DNA from: a virus
DNA: 33,158 nucleotides
Strand: one strand, 5' to 3'
Virus record (IMG/VR): IMGVR_UViG_3300044447_000005
Span: 1-33,158 of that record
Under the pieces are notes generated by a model. It was not told the origin of the DNA. It saw only the letters and a list, made by a program, of their open reading frames with translations, and did not search any database. Made by a program: the position numbers and the translations under genes. Positions 3,549 through 26,708 of this stretch are shown one piece after another. The first letter of the stretch is position 1, and each line of letters opens with the position of its first letter.

Positions 3549-4267
3549 AAACCGCTGAGCACCGTATCGGGGCGACCCCCATCGAGATCCGGGAAGACGG
3601 CGACACCTGCACCCTGTCCGGGTACGCCTCGACCTTCTCCCAGCCGTACGACATGGGCTGGTACGAAGAGACCGTGGACCCGGCAGCGTTCAAACGGACA
3701 CTCGGGCAGAAACCCGACGTCCGCCTCCTCGTCAACCACGGCGGGCTACCCCTGGCCCGCACCACATCAGGGACGCTGACCCTCGCCGCTGACGACAAGG
3801 GCCTGCTGGTCACCGGCGAGTTGGACCGGTCAGACCCCGACGTACAGGCACTGATCCCTAAAATGCAGCGGGGTGACCTCTCCCAGATGTCGTTCGCGTT
3901 CCGCGTCCTCGAAGACATCTGGGAAGACGATATGACTAAACGGACGCTGCTGTCGGTGGACCTGAACGATGGCGACGTCTCCATCGTCACCTACCCGGCG
4001 AACCCTAATGCGACAGCGACCCTCCGCGCGGACGGGCCGAACAGTGAGGCGATCGCGGCGGCACTCCGAAGCCTCGACGCGCGTGGCGCACCCGACGAGG
4101 ACCTCATCGGCGTCCTCACCCGAGCCCTCCAGCATTTCACGGGCGCCAGCGGCGGCGCCGCCGACGATGCCCTCGCCAACCAGGCCGAGGTGGACGGGAC
4201 AGCTGAAAGTCTCCGCGTCACACTGAGCCTCCTCGACCTCCGGAAAAGGAAACTCCGACTCCTGTGA
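3545..4267 (+). CDS. Prohead protease (HK97 type, U35)
   Basis: Serine protease that trims the scaffold-like N-terminus of the major capsid protein during head maturation. The 240-residue protein shows the conserved fold markers: SGYASTF near residue 25, GWYEETVDPAAF at 38-49, LLVNH with the likely catalytic His65, and DLSQMSFAF with the likely catalytic Ser116. An SIVTYPANP segment follows, as in other U35 proteases. The C-terminal 70 residues are low-similarity and could serve as a scaffold or be removed. It overlaps the portal by four bases and precedes the capsid gene by 119 bases. Confidence 0.93.
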   Translation: MKTAEHRIGATPIEIREDGDTCTLSGYASTFSQPYDMGWYEETVDPAAFKRTLGQKPDVRLLVNHGGLPLARTTSGTLTLAADDKGLLVTGELDRSDPDVQALIPKMQRGDLSQMSFAFRVLEDIWEDDMTKRTLLSVDLNDGDVSIVTYPANPNATATLRADGPNSEAIAAALRSLDARGAPDEDLIGVLTRALQHFTGASGGAADDALANQAEVDGTAESLRVTLSLLDLRKRKLRLL

Positions 4268-4386
4268 TACCGTCCAGAGTGCCAACACCCGAACGTACCG
4301 GCCCCGCGCACGCCTCGGCCTGCGTGATCCCGCTACGGGAGCGACCCGGCCCACCGACGCTAACTCCCGCAGAAAGGGACCCCGAA

Positions 4387-5718
4387 ATGAGCTTGTACGA
4401 TCAAATCAAAGAACTCCGCGTTCAGCGCAAAGAGCAACTCGAGGCGCTGCTGCAGACCGCGACCGACGAAGGCCGCGGACTCAACGAAGCCGAAGAGGGC
4501 ACCTACGAGACCGGCATCCACGAAATCCAGGGTTTCGACGCTCGCCTCTCCGACCTCGCGGAGCAGGAAACCCGCGAACAGGCCGCTAACGCCCACCGCG
4601 CCCCGACGGCGGCGACTGTCGCGTCAGTGAGCGAGCCGAATCCCGTCTACCGTCGCGGCGACACTCAGCATTCTTTCTTCCGGGACCTCGCCGACACCGC
4701 GAGGACAGGCCCCGGTAGTGACCAGGCCCGTACCCGGCTCGCAGCTGCGCAGGAAACACGCGCAGGGGACCTGACCACCGTCGCCGGTGCCGGCGGGGAG
4801 TTCGCGCCCCCGGTGTGGCTGATTGAGGATTTTATCGCTGTCGCCCGCGCCGCGCGTGTCACCGCCGACCTGTGCAACACCCGGCCACTCCCCGGCGGGA
4901 TCAGCTCAGTGAACCTCCCGAAGGTCTCGACGGGTACCACCACCGCTGTTCAGGCGACGCAGAACTCGGCACTGTCCGACACCGCGATGACAACGACCAG
5001 CGTATCCAGCGGTATCACCACCATAGGCGGTAAGCAAATCGTCTCGGTGCAGCTACTCCGGCAATCCGGTATCCCGTTCGATGAGGTAGTCCTTCAGGAC
5101 CTCGCGATGGCGTACGCAGTCAACGTCGACACACAGGTCCTGTACGGCGCCAACTCGGGCGGGGAACTCCGGGGCCTCGTCGGCACCGCCACCAACACCG
5201 CGTTCACCACGGCAAGCCCGGCACCCGCATCAGTCACCGCAGCGAACTCGCTGTACTACGTCGTGTCGAAAGTCGCGGCGGCTGTGCAGGCGAGCCGGTT
5301 CCTCCCAGCTACCGCGATCGTGATGCACCCCAACCGCTGGGCGTGGATTCTGGGCAGTGTCGATGCGAACGCGCGGCCGTTCGTGATCCCGCAGGGCAAT
5401 AATTTCAACCCTCTCGGGACCACCGGTGAGCAGCCAGCGCAGGGACTAGCCGGATATTTCGGGTCGTACCCCGTGTACACGGACCCCAACATTAGTCTCA
5501 CGGCGAACTCGGCGACGAACCAGGACGAAATCTACGTCCTCCGCCCCGAGGACCTGTGGCTATACGAAACACCAGTCGAAACAGCAAGTTTTGACGCGAC
5601 ATACGCCGACAACGCCAGCGTCCTGTTCCGGGCACTGGGCTTCGCCGCGTTCCTCCCCCACCGCTATTCCGGCGTTGTCAGGAGCATCAGAGGAACCGGT
5701 CTCATCGCACCCGCATAA
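4387..5718 (+). CDS. Major capsid protein (HK97 fold)
   Basis: Main shell protein of the head. From ATG 4387 it has 443 residues, the usual size when a delta domain is still attached. Residues 1-70 are a charged coiled coil (MSLYDQIKELRVQRKEQLEA), the expected internal scaffold cut away by the neighbouring protease. The rest shows the phage capsid pattern, with GGEFAPPVWLIEDF and a late DATYADNASVLFRALGF. AGAAAGGGA lies upstream at a suitable distance; the in-frame ATA/GTG region from 4264 has no such site and would add a proline-rich tail. The 119-base spacer before the start contains the small hairpin TCCCG-CTA-CGGGA (4328-4340), which might affect expression of this highly made protein. 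Confidence 0.95.
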   Translation: MSLYDQIKELRVQRKEQLEALLQTATDEGRGLNEAEEGTYETGIHEIQGFDARLSDLAEQETREQAANAHRAPTAATVASVSEPNPVYRRGDTQHSFFRDLADTARTGPGSDQARTRLAAAQETRAGDLTTVAGAGGEFAPPVWLIEDFIAVARAARVTADLCNTRPLPGGISSVNLPKVSTGTTTAVQATQNSALSDTAMTTTSVSSGITTIGGKQIVSVQLLRQSGIPFDEVVLQDLAMAYAVNVDTQVLYGANSGGELRGLVGTATNTAFTTASPAPASVTAANSLYYVVSKVAAAVQASRFLPATAIVMHPNRWAWILGSVDANARPFVIPQGNNFNPLGTTGEQPAQGLAGYFGSYPVYTDPNISLTANSATNQDEIYVLRPEDLWLYETPVETASFDATYADNASVLFRALGFAAFLPHRYSGVVRSIRGTGLIAPA

Positions 5719-5809: not shown

Positions 5810-6493
5810 ATGCGCATGAAAGACAAGATCGCTATCGGGTGGCTCGACCCTGGCACCGTCGATGGAATGTTCTGCCTATCCATCGCCGGTATCTACGCGC
5901 AGCGGACAAGCCGCATCGAGTCCCTGATCCGGGTGGAGTCGGGGGGGCTCCTCTCCCGTGGCCGGAACGAGCTCGTCGCCCGGTTCATGGACCACTCCGA
6001 CGCTGAGTGGCTCCTGATGCTTGACTCCGACGAGCAACTGTCCGTCGCAGGGTTCGATAAGCTCGTCGCGGCGGCCCACGATGATGAGCGGCCTGTCGTC
6101 GCTGGCCTATATTTCGGTGCGTGGCCATCCCGCGACGGGCTGTACCCGGAAGCGTGCCCTCTTATCTTTGAGAAGGTCCCGGAGACGACGACGTTCAAAC
6201 CGATCGCGAACTACCCGCAGGACACTCTTATCGAGGTTGACTCCGCGGGGACCGGGTGCCTGCTGATCCACAGGTCGGTCCTGGAGTGTTTCCGCCGGTT
6301 CGCTGACCCCAAACATGAGGGGAAGGACTGGTGCTGGTTCCGGGACATGCCAGTCAACGGCGACTGGTTCTCCGAAGACCACTTCTTCTGCGCGCGAGCC
6401 CAAACGTTGGGCTACAAGGTCCACGCGCACACCGGGGTCGTGCTGCCGCACCGCAAGCGGTTTTGGCTCACAGATAAGCACCACGGCCGGTGA
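5810..6493 (+). CDS. Glycosyltransferase, GT-A/family 2-like
   Basis: A 227-residue protein predicted to transfer a sugar from a nucleotide-sugar donor. Near residue 70 it has the run WLLMLDSDEQLS, where DSDE matches the metal- and donor-binding DxD motif of GT-A enzymes. A later GTGCLLIHRSVLE and a WFSEDHFFCARAQTLGYKVHAH segment resemble the acceptor side and the ED motif of phage family 2 enzymes. It opens a new unit after the capsid hairpins with a GGGAGGA ribosome site, and its stop overlaps the next gene by four bases (GTGA). Genes of this type near capsid genes are known in actinophages and may modify capsid or tail proteins or, given the next gene, a modified DNA base. The acceptor cannot be told from sequence. 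Confidence 0.8.
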   Translation: MRMKDKIAIGWLDPGTVDGMFCLSIAGIYAQRTSRIESLIRVESGGLLSRGRNELVARFMDHSDAEWLLMLDSDEQLSVAGFDKLVAAAHDDERPVVAGLYFGAWPSRDGLYPEACPLIFEKVPETTTFKPIANYPQDTLIEVDSAGTGCLLIHRSVLECFRRFADPKHEGKDWCWFRDMPVNGDWFSEDHFFCARAQTLGYKVHAHTGVVLPHRKRFWLTDKHHGR

Positions 6494-7218
6494 TCCACTA
6501 CCACGGCGGGCCGATCACTCCAGAGACTGCAGCGCTCCGCGCCTGGACCCGCCGGCATGCCTTCATCAGCTACGCGAGCCCCAGCCAGATCAGGTTGGCA
6601 GCGTCGATCTGCCAGTCGTTCGCGCTCGACAACGGTGCGTTCTCCGCATGGAAAGCGGGCCGCCCGACAGACTGGCCAGGGTATTACACATGGTGCGATG
6701 AGTGGCTCCGGCACCCCGCCTGCGATTGGGCTGTCATCCCCGACGTGATAGGCGGGTCGGAGGATGAGAACGACGAGCTGATCAGCGAGTGGCCGCACGG
6801 CCACAAGGGCGTGCCGGTATGGCACCTGAACGAGTCGCCCAGGCGACTCGTTCGGTTGGCGGCCGAGTGGCCGCGGATCGCGCTCGGCTCCGCCGCGGAA
6901 TGGGATGTGTCTAAGCCTAGGAAATGTATCGAGAGGCTCGCCCAGACTCTCCCGGCGATCTCCGACTCAAAGGGCCGGCCTACGGTCAAACTGCATGGGC
7001 TGCGAATGCTGAACCCCGTCGTCGTCGAGCGTGTGCCGCTCGCCAGCGGCGACAGTACGAACATCGCGAGAAACATCGGTATAGATTCGGCGTGGCGCGG
7101 CACTTACTCTCCGGCCACTAAGGAAGCGCGGGCGGATGTGATCGCTGATCGCATCGAGCGCGCCGTCTCGCCGCCCACTCTGGTGGAGTACGCTGCGGCC
7201 GACCCCGCCCTATTCTGA
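6490..7218 (+). CDS. TGT/DpdA-like 7-deazaguanine transglycosylase (probable)
   Basis: Probably a base-exchange enzyme that replaces guanine by a 7-deazaguanine (preQ0 or a derivative), in DNA if it acts like DpdA or in tRNA if like TGT. The visible signature is a short TIM-barrel-like series: FALDNGAFSAW (about residues 44-54), corresponding to the DSGGF/DSGAF segment with the general acid/base Asp; IPDVIGG at 83-89; VWHLNES near 110; RIALGS at 129-134; KLHGLR at 167-172; and SGDSTN at 186-191, whose Asp188 occupies the place of the TGT nucleophile. The 242 residues are shorter than bacterial TGT, and I see no CxCxxC zinc site. It is coupled by GTGA to the glycosyltransferase. Actinophage homologues are often labelled queuine tRNA-ribosyltransferase. 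No precursor-synthesis genes occur in the window. Confidence 0.7.
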   Translation: MIHYHGGPITPETAALRAWTRRHAFISYASPSQIRLAASICQSFALDNGAFSAWKAGRPTDWPGYYTWCDEWLRHPACDWAVIPDVIGGSEDENDELISEWPHGHKGVPVWHLNESPRRLVRLAAEWPRIALGSAAEWDVSKPRKCIERLAQTLPAISDSKGRPTVKLHGLRMLNPVVVERVPLASGDSTNIARNIGIDSAWRGTYSPATKEARADVIADRIERAVSPPTLVEYAAADPALF

Positions 7219-7257: not shown

Positions 7258-7413
7258 ATGACCAACGGCCACGACTACGCGCCCCACATAAAGATTTTGA
7301 AACAGCGGCTCGCTGAGGCCGTCGCGCACGGCGACCGCGTCGCGCAGGCCGCGTTCACCAGGGAACTGGCGGCAGCCGTCGCCGCGCAGAAGGAAACGAG
7401 GGCTAATGCTTGA
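7258..7413 (+). CDS. Small hypothetical protein, 51 residues
   Basis: A short charged, helical protein (MTNGHDYAPHIKILKQRLAE at the start, then an Ala-rich segment ending in KETRANA). I do not recognise a family. It begins at an ATG preceded by the TAGGAT-N6 motif and overlaps the connector gene by eight bases, so translation of the two is probably coupled. Codon third positions are GC-rich as in its neighbours. The length, spacing and overlap make it credible despite its size. Confidence 0.6.
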   Translation: MTNGHDYAPHIKILKQRLAEAVAHGDRVAQAAFTRELAAAVAAQKETRANA

Positions 7414-8260
7414 GGTAGGCGACGTCTACTACGGCTCAGCGGTGAACCTGAGCAACACGGGTTCACCCGTCGATTCGGGGACAGTCACCGTATCTGTGAC
7501 AGCACCCAACGGGTCAGTGACCGGACCGGCAGTTACTCAGACCGGCGTCGGCGAATACCAATACTCGTATCTCGTGGCGCTCCCCGGACCGCACCAGGTC
7601 CACTGGGCGGGGGCCGCACCGAATGCGTGGGCTCTCGCTGATGTGTTCTACGCTGACTCGGGCGACACGCTCCTCATCTCCCTAGATGAAGCGCGGCGTG
7701 GGCTGGGCGTCCCAGCCGCGAACACGGTAGGCGATGAGGACCTCCGTTCGTTCATTTCAGCTGCGACGCCGATCATTGAGGACCTCATCGGCCCCGTCCT
7801 GGCTAAGACGCGGGTGGAAACGTACGACGGGGGCGCTGCGGCCATCCCGCTGCTCCACGCACCGATCTTGTCGGTCACGAGCGTGGTCGAGTCGTGGGGC
7901 GGGGGGACAGTGCGGACCTTGACCCCGCAAACCCCGTTCACGGGCGGTGGTGATGCGTTCGGCTACTCCGCGGATCTCGTGACGGGGCTCCTGACTCGCC
8001 GCGCGTCCGGTGTCGCGGTCCGGTTCGCGCCCGGCGAGCGGAACGTTCAGGTCACGTATGTGTCGGGTCGGCTGCTGCGCCCGAACCACGTCCTCGCAAC
8101 CCGCCGCCTCGTCCGCCATTTGTGGCAGTCGGAGCAAACAGGGTTCCGCCCGGCGATGGGGCAACCCGATGCGACCGTGAAAACCCCGGCTGGGTTCGCT
8201 GTCCCGAAAGCGGTCCTGGAGATCCTCGCAGACTCCCGCCGCGTCGCCGGTATCGGCTGA
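7406..8260 (+). CDS. Head-to-tail connector with N-terminal Ig-like domain
   Basis: Probably a neck protein that closes the portal and joins head to tail. Residues 1-90 look like a beta-sandwich (SPVDSGTVTVSVTAPNGSV, then GEYQYSYLVALPGPHQVHWAG), as in Ig-like decorations. From about residue 95 (LISLDEARRGLGVP, DEDLRSFISAATPIIEDLIGPVL, then VTSVVESWGGGTV and VRFAPGERNVQVTYVSG) the sequence follows the HK97 gp6/SPP1 gp15-like adaptor pattern: a helical front, a beta hairpin and a helical tail (RRLVRHLWQSEQTG). The gene sits between capsid and tail-tube genes, where this adaptor is expected. The 284-residue length reflects the added N-terminal domain. Confidence 0.75.
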   Translation: MLEVGDVYYGSAVNLSNTGSPVDSGTVTVSVTAPNGSVTGPAVTQTGVGEYQYSYLVALPGPHQVHWAGAAPNAWALADVFYADSGDTLLISLDEARRGLGVPAANTVGDEDLRSFISAATPIIEDLIGPVLAKTRVETYDGGAAAIPLLHAPILSVTSVVESWGGGTVRTLTPQTPFTGGGDAFGYSADLVTGLLTRRASGVAVRFAPGERNVQVTYVSGRLLRPNHVLATRRLVRHLWQSEQTGFRPAMGQPDATVKTPAGFAVPKAVLEILADSRRVAGIG

Positions 8261-23638: not shown

Positions 23639-23805
23639 CCGCAGTCGGGGCGGAGCTGAAGGCGTTGCTGAAGATCGTGTGGAGGCTGATAGCGCTGGAG
23701 GAACGCGGCGAGTCAGACCCCGAACTCGCCGGCCAGCTCGCTGCAGCGGCCGACCTGATCAGCCACGTGCAGGCCACGATGAGCGAGAAGGAGGCGCGGG
23801 TATGA
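23635..23805 (+). CDS. Small helical protein, 56 residues
   Basis: ATG 23635 overlaps the preceding stop. The product is a single amphipathic helical run (TAVGAELKALLKIVWRLIAL, EERGESDPELAGQLAAAADL, ISHVQATMSEKEARV). No family is recognised. The stop overlaps the start of the Rad52-like gene, so expression is coupled to the recombination pair. An accessory role there is only suggested by position. Confidence 0.6.
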   Translation: MTAVGAELKALLKIVWRLIALEERGESDPELAGQLAAAADLISHVQATMSEKEARV

Positions 23806-24551
23806 CATTTTCCGAGGCGCAGATCGCTCAGTTGCTGAAACCGATCGCGGCGAAGCGGGTCCTGAAAGACGGGAAAGGGTTTTCGCATGTGTCGCAGCAG
23901 GACATCACGGCGCACCTCATCCGCGTGCTCGGGTTCGGTGCGTTCGACACGCAGATCCTGTCACTCGACCTGGTCTACGAGAAAAACTCGCTCGACCGGA
24001 AAACGGGGAAACCAAACCCGGACCGGTGGGACGTCGGGTACAGGGCGACGCTCCGCCTCACGATCCGGGACCCGGACGGGGCCGAGCAGTGCCACTATGA
24101 GGACGGGTCGATGGGGGTCGCGCAAAACCAGGCGCTCGGCGACGCACACGATCTGGCGATGAAAAGCGCTATCAGTCTCGCGAAAAAAAGGTGCGCTATA
24201 AACCTCGGCGACAACTTCGGATTGTCTTTGTACAATAAGGGGCAAACCGCGGCTCTGGTGATCGGCACCCTGATCCGCACCGGCGCCACGCAGACCCCTG
24301 CGGATATGCAGGCGGGTGTCGAGCAGCAGGTGACCCTCGGCCGCGACGAGACGGACCAGGGGGACGATATCGCACCGCATGCCGCGAGCGATGAGCTGCT
24401 GGAGCAGATCGCTGACCTGCTGGAGCAGGCGTCGACCAGGCAAGAGGTGCGGGAAGTGGGCGAGAAAATCGCCGGGCTGGGCCTCGATCCGGGGACCCGC
24501 GCTGAGCTGAAAATCCTGTACGGCAAAAGAATGAAGGAGATGACGTCATGA
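23802..24551 (+). CDS. Rad52-like single-strand annealing protein
   Basis: Recombinase mediating single-strand annealing of exonuclease-processed ends. The 249-residue protein matches the Rad52/22 pattern: IAQLLKPIAAKRVLKDGKGF, SHVSQQDITAHLIRVLGFGA, then the beta strands VGYRATLRLTIRDPDG, the HYEDGSMGVAQ acid/glycine turn, and the MKSAISLAKKRCAINLGDNF, GLSLYNKG segment that corresponds to the conserved AxxSAxxDAxKRxxxxxGxxFGxxLY motif. The C-terminal third is acidic and helical (SDELLEQIADLLEQASTRQE), a likely tail for partner or single-strand-binding protein contact. It overlaps the exonuclease gene by four bases. Confidence 0.85.
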   Translation: MTFSEAQIAQLLKPIAAKRVLKDGKGFSHVSQQDITAHLIRVLGFGAFDTQILSLDLVYEKNSLDRKTGKPNPDRWDVGYRATLRLTIRDPDGAEQCHYEDGSMGVAQNQALGDAHDLAMKSAISLAKKRCAINLGDNFGLSLYNKGQTAALVIGTLIRTGATQTPADMQAGVEQQVTLGRDETDQGDDIAPHAASDELLEQIADLLEQASTRQEVREVGEKIAGLGLDPGTRAELKILYGKRMKEMTS

Positions 24552-25399
24552 CTCTCTCACCTCTCCGGACGGGCCGTATCACGGGGTCCCGCGTCGCGGC
24601 CATCATCGGGCAGTCGCCCTACGCGACCAGTACCGACGTGATGCGGGAAATGGTCCGCGAGCACCACGGCGACGACAGGGAGTTCGCTGGGAACGTCGCC
24701 ACGCAGTGGGGTCAGGACCACGAGCACCTGGCCGTAGCGATGTACGAAACAGAGTGCGGGGTCCTCGTCCACGGCGAGCAGGGGTTCATAACGCACCCGG
24801 ATCATCCGTATCTGGGGGTCACACCCGATGGCCTCGTCGGCGACGACGGGATGATCGAGGTGAAATGCCCGTGGCGGGGCAAATATCGGCATATCAGTGA
24901 GTCGCCTGCGCACGAGGCGCAGATCCGTCTACAGCTCGCGGTGACGGGCCGCCGGTGGTGCGACTATGTCGTGTGGGCCGATGATCGGATCTCGATCTCC
25001 CGCGTCTACCACGATCCCGGCTGGCTAGATATGCACCTGCCCAGGCTCGCCGATTTCGTCAGCGAGTATGAGGTGATCGTCGCGGATGAGACACTGTCTG
25101 CGCCGTTCCGGGCTCCGGCTGACCGCCGCGACGAGGACTGGGCCGACGCCGCCGACACCTATCAGCGGCTCCTGGACGAGAGGGACGTCGTCGATGCTGA
25201 GCTGAAGGAAGCGAAAGGGGTCCTGCTGGAGTTGGCGGGCGGGCAGCCAGCGAAGGGGCGGGGGATACAGGTCTCGCTTACGAAACGGAAGCCGCGGTTT
25301 GATGTCGATGCCCTCGCCGCTTATTCTCATGGGCTCGACCTGAACATGTTTTACGGTGAGCCGTCGGAGTCGTGGACTGTCCGGCGGTGGGCCGGGTGA
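24548..25399 (+). CDS. YqaJ/RecB-type exonuclease
   Basis: Resects double-stranded ends to give the annealing protein its single strands. In the 283-residue protein the PD-(D/E)XK features are easy to see: TGSRVAAIIGQSPYATSTD near the start, TQWGQDHEHLAVAMYE at about 52-67, LGVTPDGLVGDDGMIEVKCP with Asp94, Glu104 and Lys106, then QIRLQLAVTGRRWCDYVVW with glutamines at 125 and 129. The C-terminal part is helical (LLDERDVVDAELKEAKGVLL). Together with the Rad52-like gene it forms a RecET/Red-like pair. Its stop overlaps the next start. Confidence 0.85.
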   Translation: MTLSPLRTGRITGSRVAAIIGQSPYATSTDVMREMVREHHGDDREFAGNVATQWGQDHEHLAVAMYETECGVLVHGEQGFITHPDHPYLGVTPDGLVGDDGMIEVKCPWRGKYRHISESPAHEAQIRLQLAVTGRRWCDYVVWADDRISISRVYHDPGWLDMHLPRLADFVSEYEVIVADETLSAPFRAPADRRDEDWADAADTYQRLLDERDVVDAELKEAKGVLLELAGGQPAKGRGIQVSLTKRKPRFDVDALAAYSHGLDLNMFYGEPSESWTVRRWAG

Positions 25400-26048: not shown

Positions 26049-26305
26049 GTTTTATGGACGGCATCCACGCCGAGGCGTGGATGCGCGACGCGAGTTGCGC
26101 GCAGATCGGGTGTGACGACGACCTGTGGTTCCAGCCGGGGCCGAACCCCGTAGCCGACCGAGTGTGCGCCGAGTGCCCCATTCGTGCCGAGTGTCTCGCA
26201 TACGCGGTGGCGATCCCCTCGCTGGAGGGCGTATGGGCCGGGACCAGCTTTAAACAGCGTCAGCGGCTACGCCGGCAAACGCGGGTGGTGGCCCCTCGTG
26301 GGTAG
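26033..26305 (+). CDS. WhiB-like regulator 1
   Basis: An iron-sulphur-cluster transcription regulator of the WhiB family. From ATG 26033 it is 90 residues; ATG 26018 and ATG 26054 are other possible starts. The four-cysteine set is Cys22, CAEC (45-48) and Cys54 (CAQIGC at 22-27 has one extra Cys), followed by the turn GVWAGT and the basic tail KQRQRLRRQTRVVAP. Such proteins bind the sigma A subunit region of actinobacterial polymerase. It overlaps the HNH gene end and the second WhiB-like gene start. Having two family members in a row points to control of transcription. Confidence 0.8.
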   Translation: MGQDLSFMDGIHAEAWMRDASCAQIGCDDDLWFQPGPNPVADRVCAECPIRAECLAYAVAIPSLEGVWAGTSFKQRQRLRRQTRVVAPRG

Positions 26306-26708
26306 CTCGCAGCGGGAAACGTGGGCGGAGGACGCGCTGTGCCTCGGCGCGGACGGCGAGATGTGGTTCGAGGCGGTACCCGTCGCCGCTGTCCGGATCT
26401 GCCGGCAGTGTCCCGTCGCAGCGGAGTGTCTGGGGTATGCGCTGGCTCGCCCAGACCTCGACGGAGTGTGGGGCGGCACGACACCCAAAGAGCGGAAGCG
26501 GTTACGCCGGACGGCCCGCCCGCCAGTCGAGTGCCCCGTCTGCCAGCGGATGGTGTCGGGGTACCCGGGTCAGCTCGCCGCACACCTGAGGAGGAACCAC
26601 AGGTCGTCGTCACACCCCTTCACTTTGAGGCGCGACAAGCGGGGTTGGTGCACAGTGTGTCTGCTCCGGTCGAGCAACCCCATCCACTCGGGGACCCCGG
26701 ATGCCTGA
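26298..26708 (+). CDS. WhiB-like protein fused to a C2H2-like zinc finger
   Basis: A 136-residue protein starting at GTG 26298, overlapping the preceding stop by eight bases. Residues 1-75 form a WhiB domain: Cys15, CRQC (35-38), Cys44, then GVWGGTTPKERKRLRR. After RPPVE a finger follows: CPVC at 79-82, then H96 and H101, in the order C-x2-C-x13-H-x4-H. A CTVC at 118-121 ends the chain with an HSGTPDA tail. WhiB proteins normally stop near the basic tail, so this adds a second metal-binding or DNA-binding module. It overlaps the next gene by eight bases. Confidence 0.8.
   Translation: MGSSQRETWAEDALCLGADGEMWFEAVPVAAVRICRQCPVAAECLGYALARPDLDGVWGGTTPKERKRLRRTARPPVECPVCQRMVSGYPGQLAAHLRRNHRSSSHPFTLRRDKRGWCTVCLLRSSNPIHSGTPDA

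Follow-up and report, generated by a model that had tools for sequence, protein, structure and literature searches.

A singleton DpdA in the head module of a probable actinobacterial phage and its apparent pairing with a glycosyltransferase

The occurrence of DpdA without precursor genes has been described previously, and phages that carry dpdA only are the largest group in PMC6884629. The DNA of one such phage, 7-11, contains dADG at ~0.02% of G; the DNA of Orion contains none, because the Orion host makes no preQ0 (PMC6884629). The DNA of MED16, which likewise has dpdA only, contains dADG in ~0.13% of G (PMC8306585). PMC6884629 also raises the question of a possible functional divergence of singleton DpdA. 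The singleton DpdA proteins of Salmonella phages 7-11, SW9 and SEN1 and of Pantoea phage MED16 resemble the protein described here in that they are short, TGT-like and found in phages that lack precursor genes. Those of 7-11 and SW9 possess the same conserved residues and are 34-37% identical to it over most of its length. All four phages have enterobacterial hosts, in which preQ0 synthesis is the rule, whereas the phage described here has a probable actinobacterial host and carries DpdA in the head module beside a glycosyltransferase. The DpdA proteins of 9g and CAjan/VogelGryff, phages with preQ0 and G+ DNA modification, have the catalytic Asp pair and the equivalent of H196 in common with the present protein. 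However, DpdA of 9g and VogelGryff is ~310 aa long with a C-terminal extension, compared to 242 aa here, and is encoded beside FolE; 9g also encodes QueD, a QueE-type protein and QueC, and none of these accompanies the present gene.

The window, the whole stretch of 33,158 nucleotides that was analysed, is a linear IMG/VR contig of a soil phage (IMGVR_UViG_3300044447_000005). The 33-kb record is probably incomplete. Contigs of its relatives are 38-39 kb in length, so a few genes may be absent from the record, and absence from the window does not equal absence from the phage. No tRNA genes were found in the record. The locus is located between the genes for the major capsid protein and a head-tail adaptor (Table 1). 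Both open reading frames that the earlier note had described in this interval are present, run in the same direction and overlap by GTGA.

Table 1. Features of the glycosyltransferase-DpdA locus and its flanking head genes.
Feature	Position	Strand	Basis
Major capsid protein, HK97-like	4264..5718	+	Related only to mycobacteriophage capsids among named phages
GT-A-like glycosyltransferase, 227 aa	5810..6493	+	Match to phage glycosyltransferase family phrog_34859, E 2.5e-27; DSD (DXD) motif at residues 72-74
GTGA stop/start overlap, glycosyltransferase/DpdA	6490..6493	+	Junction read in sequence
DpdA-type base-exchange enzyme (TGT superfamily), 242 aa, GTG start	6490..7218	+	Match to phrog_887, E 7.7e-73
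Small ORF (MTNGHDYAPHIKILKQRL...)	7258..7413	+	Similar short ORFs directly after, or fused to, the glycosyltransferase in L082-L086
Head-tail adaptor, right-hand anchor of the locus	7406..8260	+	Family match and synteny with relatives

The second gene of the pair encodes a full-length member of phrog_887, annotated in PHROGs as "queuine tRNA-ribosyltransferase". This match, along with the residues shared with 9g DpdA, bears out the DpdA/TGT-like identity proposed from the sequence in the earlier note. The protein has no match in Pfam or NCBIfam, and no match to PF01702 was found in the six frames of the record, which indicates a phage-type member of the superfamily and not a canonical TGT. Searches of PDB sequences with the single protein and with an alignment revealed no homologue, and nothing was found by PADLOC. 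By tblastn (E 1e-5) the protein matches 115 phage records, the best being Vibrio phage Athena1 (61%). The matches listed in a looser tblastn search include 7-11 (34%, E 7e-26), SW9 (37%, E 2e-40) and VogelGryff DpdA (E 1e-5), and DpdA of phage 9g is matched by profile with a probability of 94.7. At least 578 stretches in IMG/VR contain relatives of the protein. Elsewhere the phrog_887 family is found mainly in gammaproteobacterial phages, with members in the temperate phages BTP1, SPN3UB, SfI and Athena1 that are 52-61% identical over nearly the full length. In Athena1 and BTP1, the two inspected, the gene resides in the early/replication region, unlike the head module position seen here. No biochemical test of relatives with more than 50% identity was found in the literature.

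The residues required for assignment to DpdA are retained. LDNGAF, PDVIG, LGS and GDST are all present, as the earlier note had stated, and the signpost residues D47, D85, G133, D188 and S189 do not vary across an alignment extending from the window protein to DpdA of 9g and VogelGryff; the signposts are therefore not a product of chance. The candidate catalytic residues D47, D85, H112, H169 and D188 are also all invariant between the window protein and 9g DpdA, where they correspond to D72, D114, H141, H196 and D215, respectively. Thus, the catalytic Asp pair on which the earlier note had made the assignment depend is kept (D47/D188, equivalent to D72/D215 in 9g). H169 aligns exactly with H196 of 9g (KVH196GF), the histidine used to define DpdA. 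This residue separates DpdA, in which it is present, from DpdA2, in which it is absent (PMC6884629), and its presence here sets the protein apart from DpdA2 of the Vibrio phage nt-1 type. The C-terminal CxCxxC zinc site was not found in the window protein, which contains four scattered Cys residues. Nor does the protein resemble a canonical bacterial TGT, having neither a PF01702 match nor the zinc site.

The AF2 model of the protein is confident (pLDDT 87.6, pTM 0.86). In BFVD the named top structural matches are phage queuine tRNA-ribosyltransferases, including those of Arthrobacter, Microbacterium and Mycobacterium phages. Comparison with PDB folds gave weaker results; the best query TM-score among the 50 matches listed was 0.53, to the archaeosine TGT 1j2b (E 0.046), and none of the listed matches fell below 1e-3. 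A modelled fold like that of the TGT superfamily, and the tRNA-ribosyltransferase annotation carried by PHROGs and many records, would suit a tRNA-guanine transglycosylase that acts on host tRNA during infection. Such a role is quite unlikely for a protein of only 242 aa that lacks the zinc site and the PF01702 match but keeps the marker histidine of DpdA. Moreover, modified DNA occurs in phages that have dpdA alone (PMC8306585, PMC6884629).

The earlier note had seen no FolE, QueD, QueE or QueC candidate in the window, and six-frame family searches of the record agree: QueC, PTPS/QueD, FolE, radical-SAM proteins (QueE superfamily) and Vut_1/YhhQ were all without a match. The genes beside DpdA were surveyed in 178 collected loci, which sample the nearest relatives and of which about 149 are distinct. 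A QueD-like PTPS gene is found upstream of DpdA on 15 contigs, including that of Caulobacter phage DMCA, mostly with a 4-base overlap. In one locus (L123) a canonical QueD gene overlaps DpdA, and in two others (L027:5453-6004 and L076:5468-6004) the gene overlapping DpdA by 4 bases encodes a Vut_1 (YhhQ-type) transporter, possibly a phage preQ0 uptake gene. In L008 QueC is encoded 11 bases downstream of DpdA. The overlapping QueD-like and transporter genes and the adjoining QueC support a 7-deazaguanine as the substrate of the family. In a tree the window DpdA groups, on a long branch, with most of the members linked to QueD-like, QueC or transporter genes (support 92/99). QueC is also present in all 15 bacterial genomes with DpdA prophages, a result that does not discriminate, since the preQ0 pathway is anyway expected in the majority of such hosts.

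Several of these neighbouring genes have features of their own. In L008:3115-5065, and also in L007, a QueD-like gene 233 bases from DpdA, the DpdA gene itself and an intact QueC gene (PF06508, E 7.3e-66) occur together on one contig, a partial precursor pathway with the DpdA family of the window. In many relatives the gene for a QueD-like PTPS protein of ~100 aa extends into the DpdA start, among them L003:1800-2117, L020:5705-6004, L033:5693-6004, L053:1054-1350, L116:2660-3004, L069:5639-6004 and L105:4684-5001. The HGH zinc motif is kept in these proteins, but the position of the catalytic Cys (CxxLHGH) is occupied by D, E, T or G in nearly all of them and by C in L119/L120. Given this replacement, the small QueD-like PTPS may not be a normal QueD.

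The structural model of the glycosyltransferase is poor (pLDDT 48, from seven sequences), and the weak resemblance to a GT-A fold is suggestive only. Six IMG/VR relatives of the phage (L082-L087) keep the gene in synteny at 68-72% identity, without DpdA in the locus. The gene order in these relatives is capsid, glycosyltransferase, head-tail adaptor; where the contig extends that far, a portal and a protease gene are found upstream. A search of the whole L082 and L083 records (38-39 kb) did not find DpdA; the search had no control, but its query matches hundreds of sequences elsewhere. Conversely, the glycosyltransferase profile matched none of the 177 other DpdA loci, even at E 1, so the two genes are adjacent in 1 of the 178 collected DpdA loci and their linkage is not conserved. 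In two of the relatives, L083 and L085, the end of the glycosyltransferase gene likewise shares a GTGA with the start of the next gene, there a short ORF and not DpdA; in L082 and L084 the junction between glycosyltransferase and short ORF is TGATG. A similar short ORF is present in the window, but there it comes after DpdA and not after the glycosyltransferase. The simplest reading of these junctions is that DpdA was inserted between the glycosyltransferase and the short ORF, which would mark the insertion point.

The earlier note had taken the two genes as a coupled unit. Co-directional genes joined by a GTGA overlap, and the existence of sugar-modified DNA bases in other phages, such as the glucosyl-hmC of T4 DNA, are what one would expect of a two-step hypermodification unit in which a 7-deazaguanine put in by DpdA would receive a sugar from the glycosyltransferase. 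The distribution of the genes makes this very improbable: the glycosyltransferase is without DpdA in six of six close relatives, DpdA is without the glycosyltransferase in 177 of 177 other loci, and the overlap is older than DpdA at the locus. Since the overlap exists in relatives without DpdA, it is no evidence for a joint pathway, and a special translational coupling of the two genes is rejected. PreQ0 and ADG, to our knowledge, also have no hydroxyl of the kind used by a standard glycosyltransferase. Nor is there support for the sugar-bearing deazaguanine that the earlier note had raised as a possibility. That the glycosyltransferase has been recruited in this phage to glycosylate the base that DpdA inserts, and so to yield a glycosylated 7-deazaguanine in DNA, is extremely improbable, and no report of such a base in phage DNA was found in the literature consulted.

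Genomic position points to another target for the glycosyltransferase. The Omega-like (cluster J) mycobacteriophages harbor clusters of glycosyltransferase genes in the same slot, from capsid to head-tail genes. Their slot holds 8-10 genes with several glycosyltransferases (PMC3706429), whereas that of the window holds one glycosyltransferase and DpdA. Gp12 of Optimus, a member of cluster J, aligns with the window glycosyltransferase (23%, E 3e-6), with a profile probability of 65%. Capsid glycans have been reported in other mycobacteriophages (PMC11256854). The glycosyltransferase is a core gene of the lineage that most likely decorates the virion, a likelier target by position than a DNA base. 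It was probably in the locus first and is most likely unrelated to DpdA, and the two genes are unlikely to make up a new DNA-sugar system.

The host is probably an actinobacterium, based on sequence kinship. The relatives of TerL and of the capsid protein are overwhelmingly from phages of actinobacteria, as are the best matches of the portal protein and the helicase, and the window contains a gene for a WhiB-type regulator (26184-26708). Mycobacterium smegmatis makes no preQ0, and mycobacteria lack the preQ0 pathway (PMC6884629). With a probable actinobacterial host the base may therefore be unavailable, as in Orion. It could be argued that dpdA was acquired as a mere passenger, finds no substrate in the present host and leaves the phage DNA unaffected, given that its family is otherwise found mainly in gammaproteobacterial phages, that no precursor genes are in the record and that the DNA of Orion, whose host makes no preQ0, carries no modification. 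This is unlikely, however. The reading frame is uninterrupted, ~40% divergence has left every conserved residue in place, and the codon composition matches that of the phage (GC3 0.79), which suggests retention under selection.

The preferred reading, with a probability of roughly 0.78, is that the second gene encodes a singleton phage DpdA that uses a host-made or scavenged base, and that the glycosyltransferase is functionally separate. By analogy with TGT, the enzyme, with a probable TGT fold, would cleave the N-glycosidic bond of selected guanines in DNA with D188 as the Asp nucleophile; D47 would serve as general acid/base, and D85, H112 and H169 would shape the base pocket. A 7-deazaguanine made by the host or scavenged, presumably preQ0 and possibly later found as dADG, would be inserted in place of the guanine. 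Probably few guanines would be replaced, and none unless the base is supplied by the actinobacterial host. The dpdA gene would have entered the accessory slot that separates the capsid gene from the head-tail genes, immediately downstream of a lineage-specific glycosyltransferase gene.

These results assign a singleton DpdA to a phage whose host is probably an actinobacterium; both this host and the head module position are unusual. Mere adjacency most likely accounts for the seeming pairing of the glycosyltransferase with DpdA, and recognising this spares a false lead. The family context provides testable support for the use of a 7-deazaguanine by singleton DpdA and bears on the divergence question of PMC6884629. 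Finally, the window also contains a recombination gene pair (23679-25399), in which a RecE-like exonuclease is encoded beside a member of a recombinase/DNA-repair protein family.
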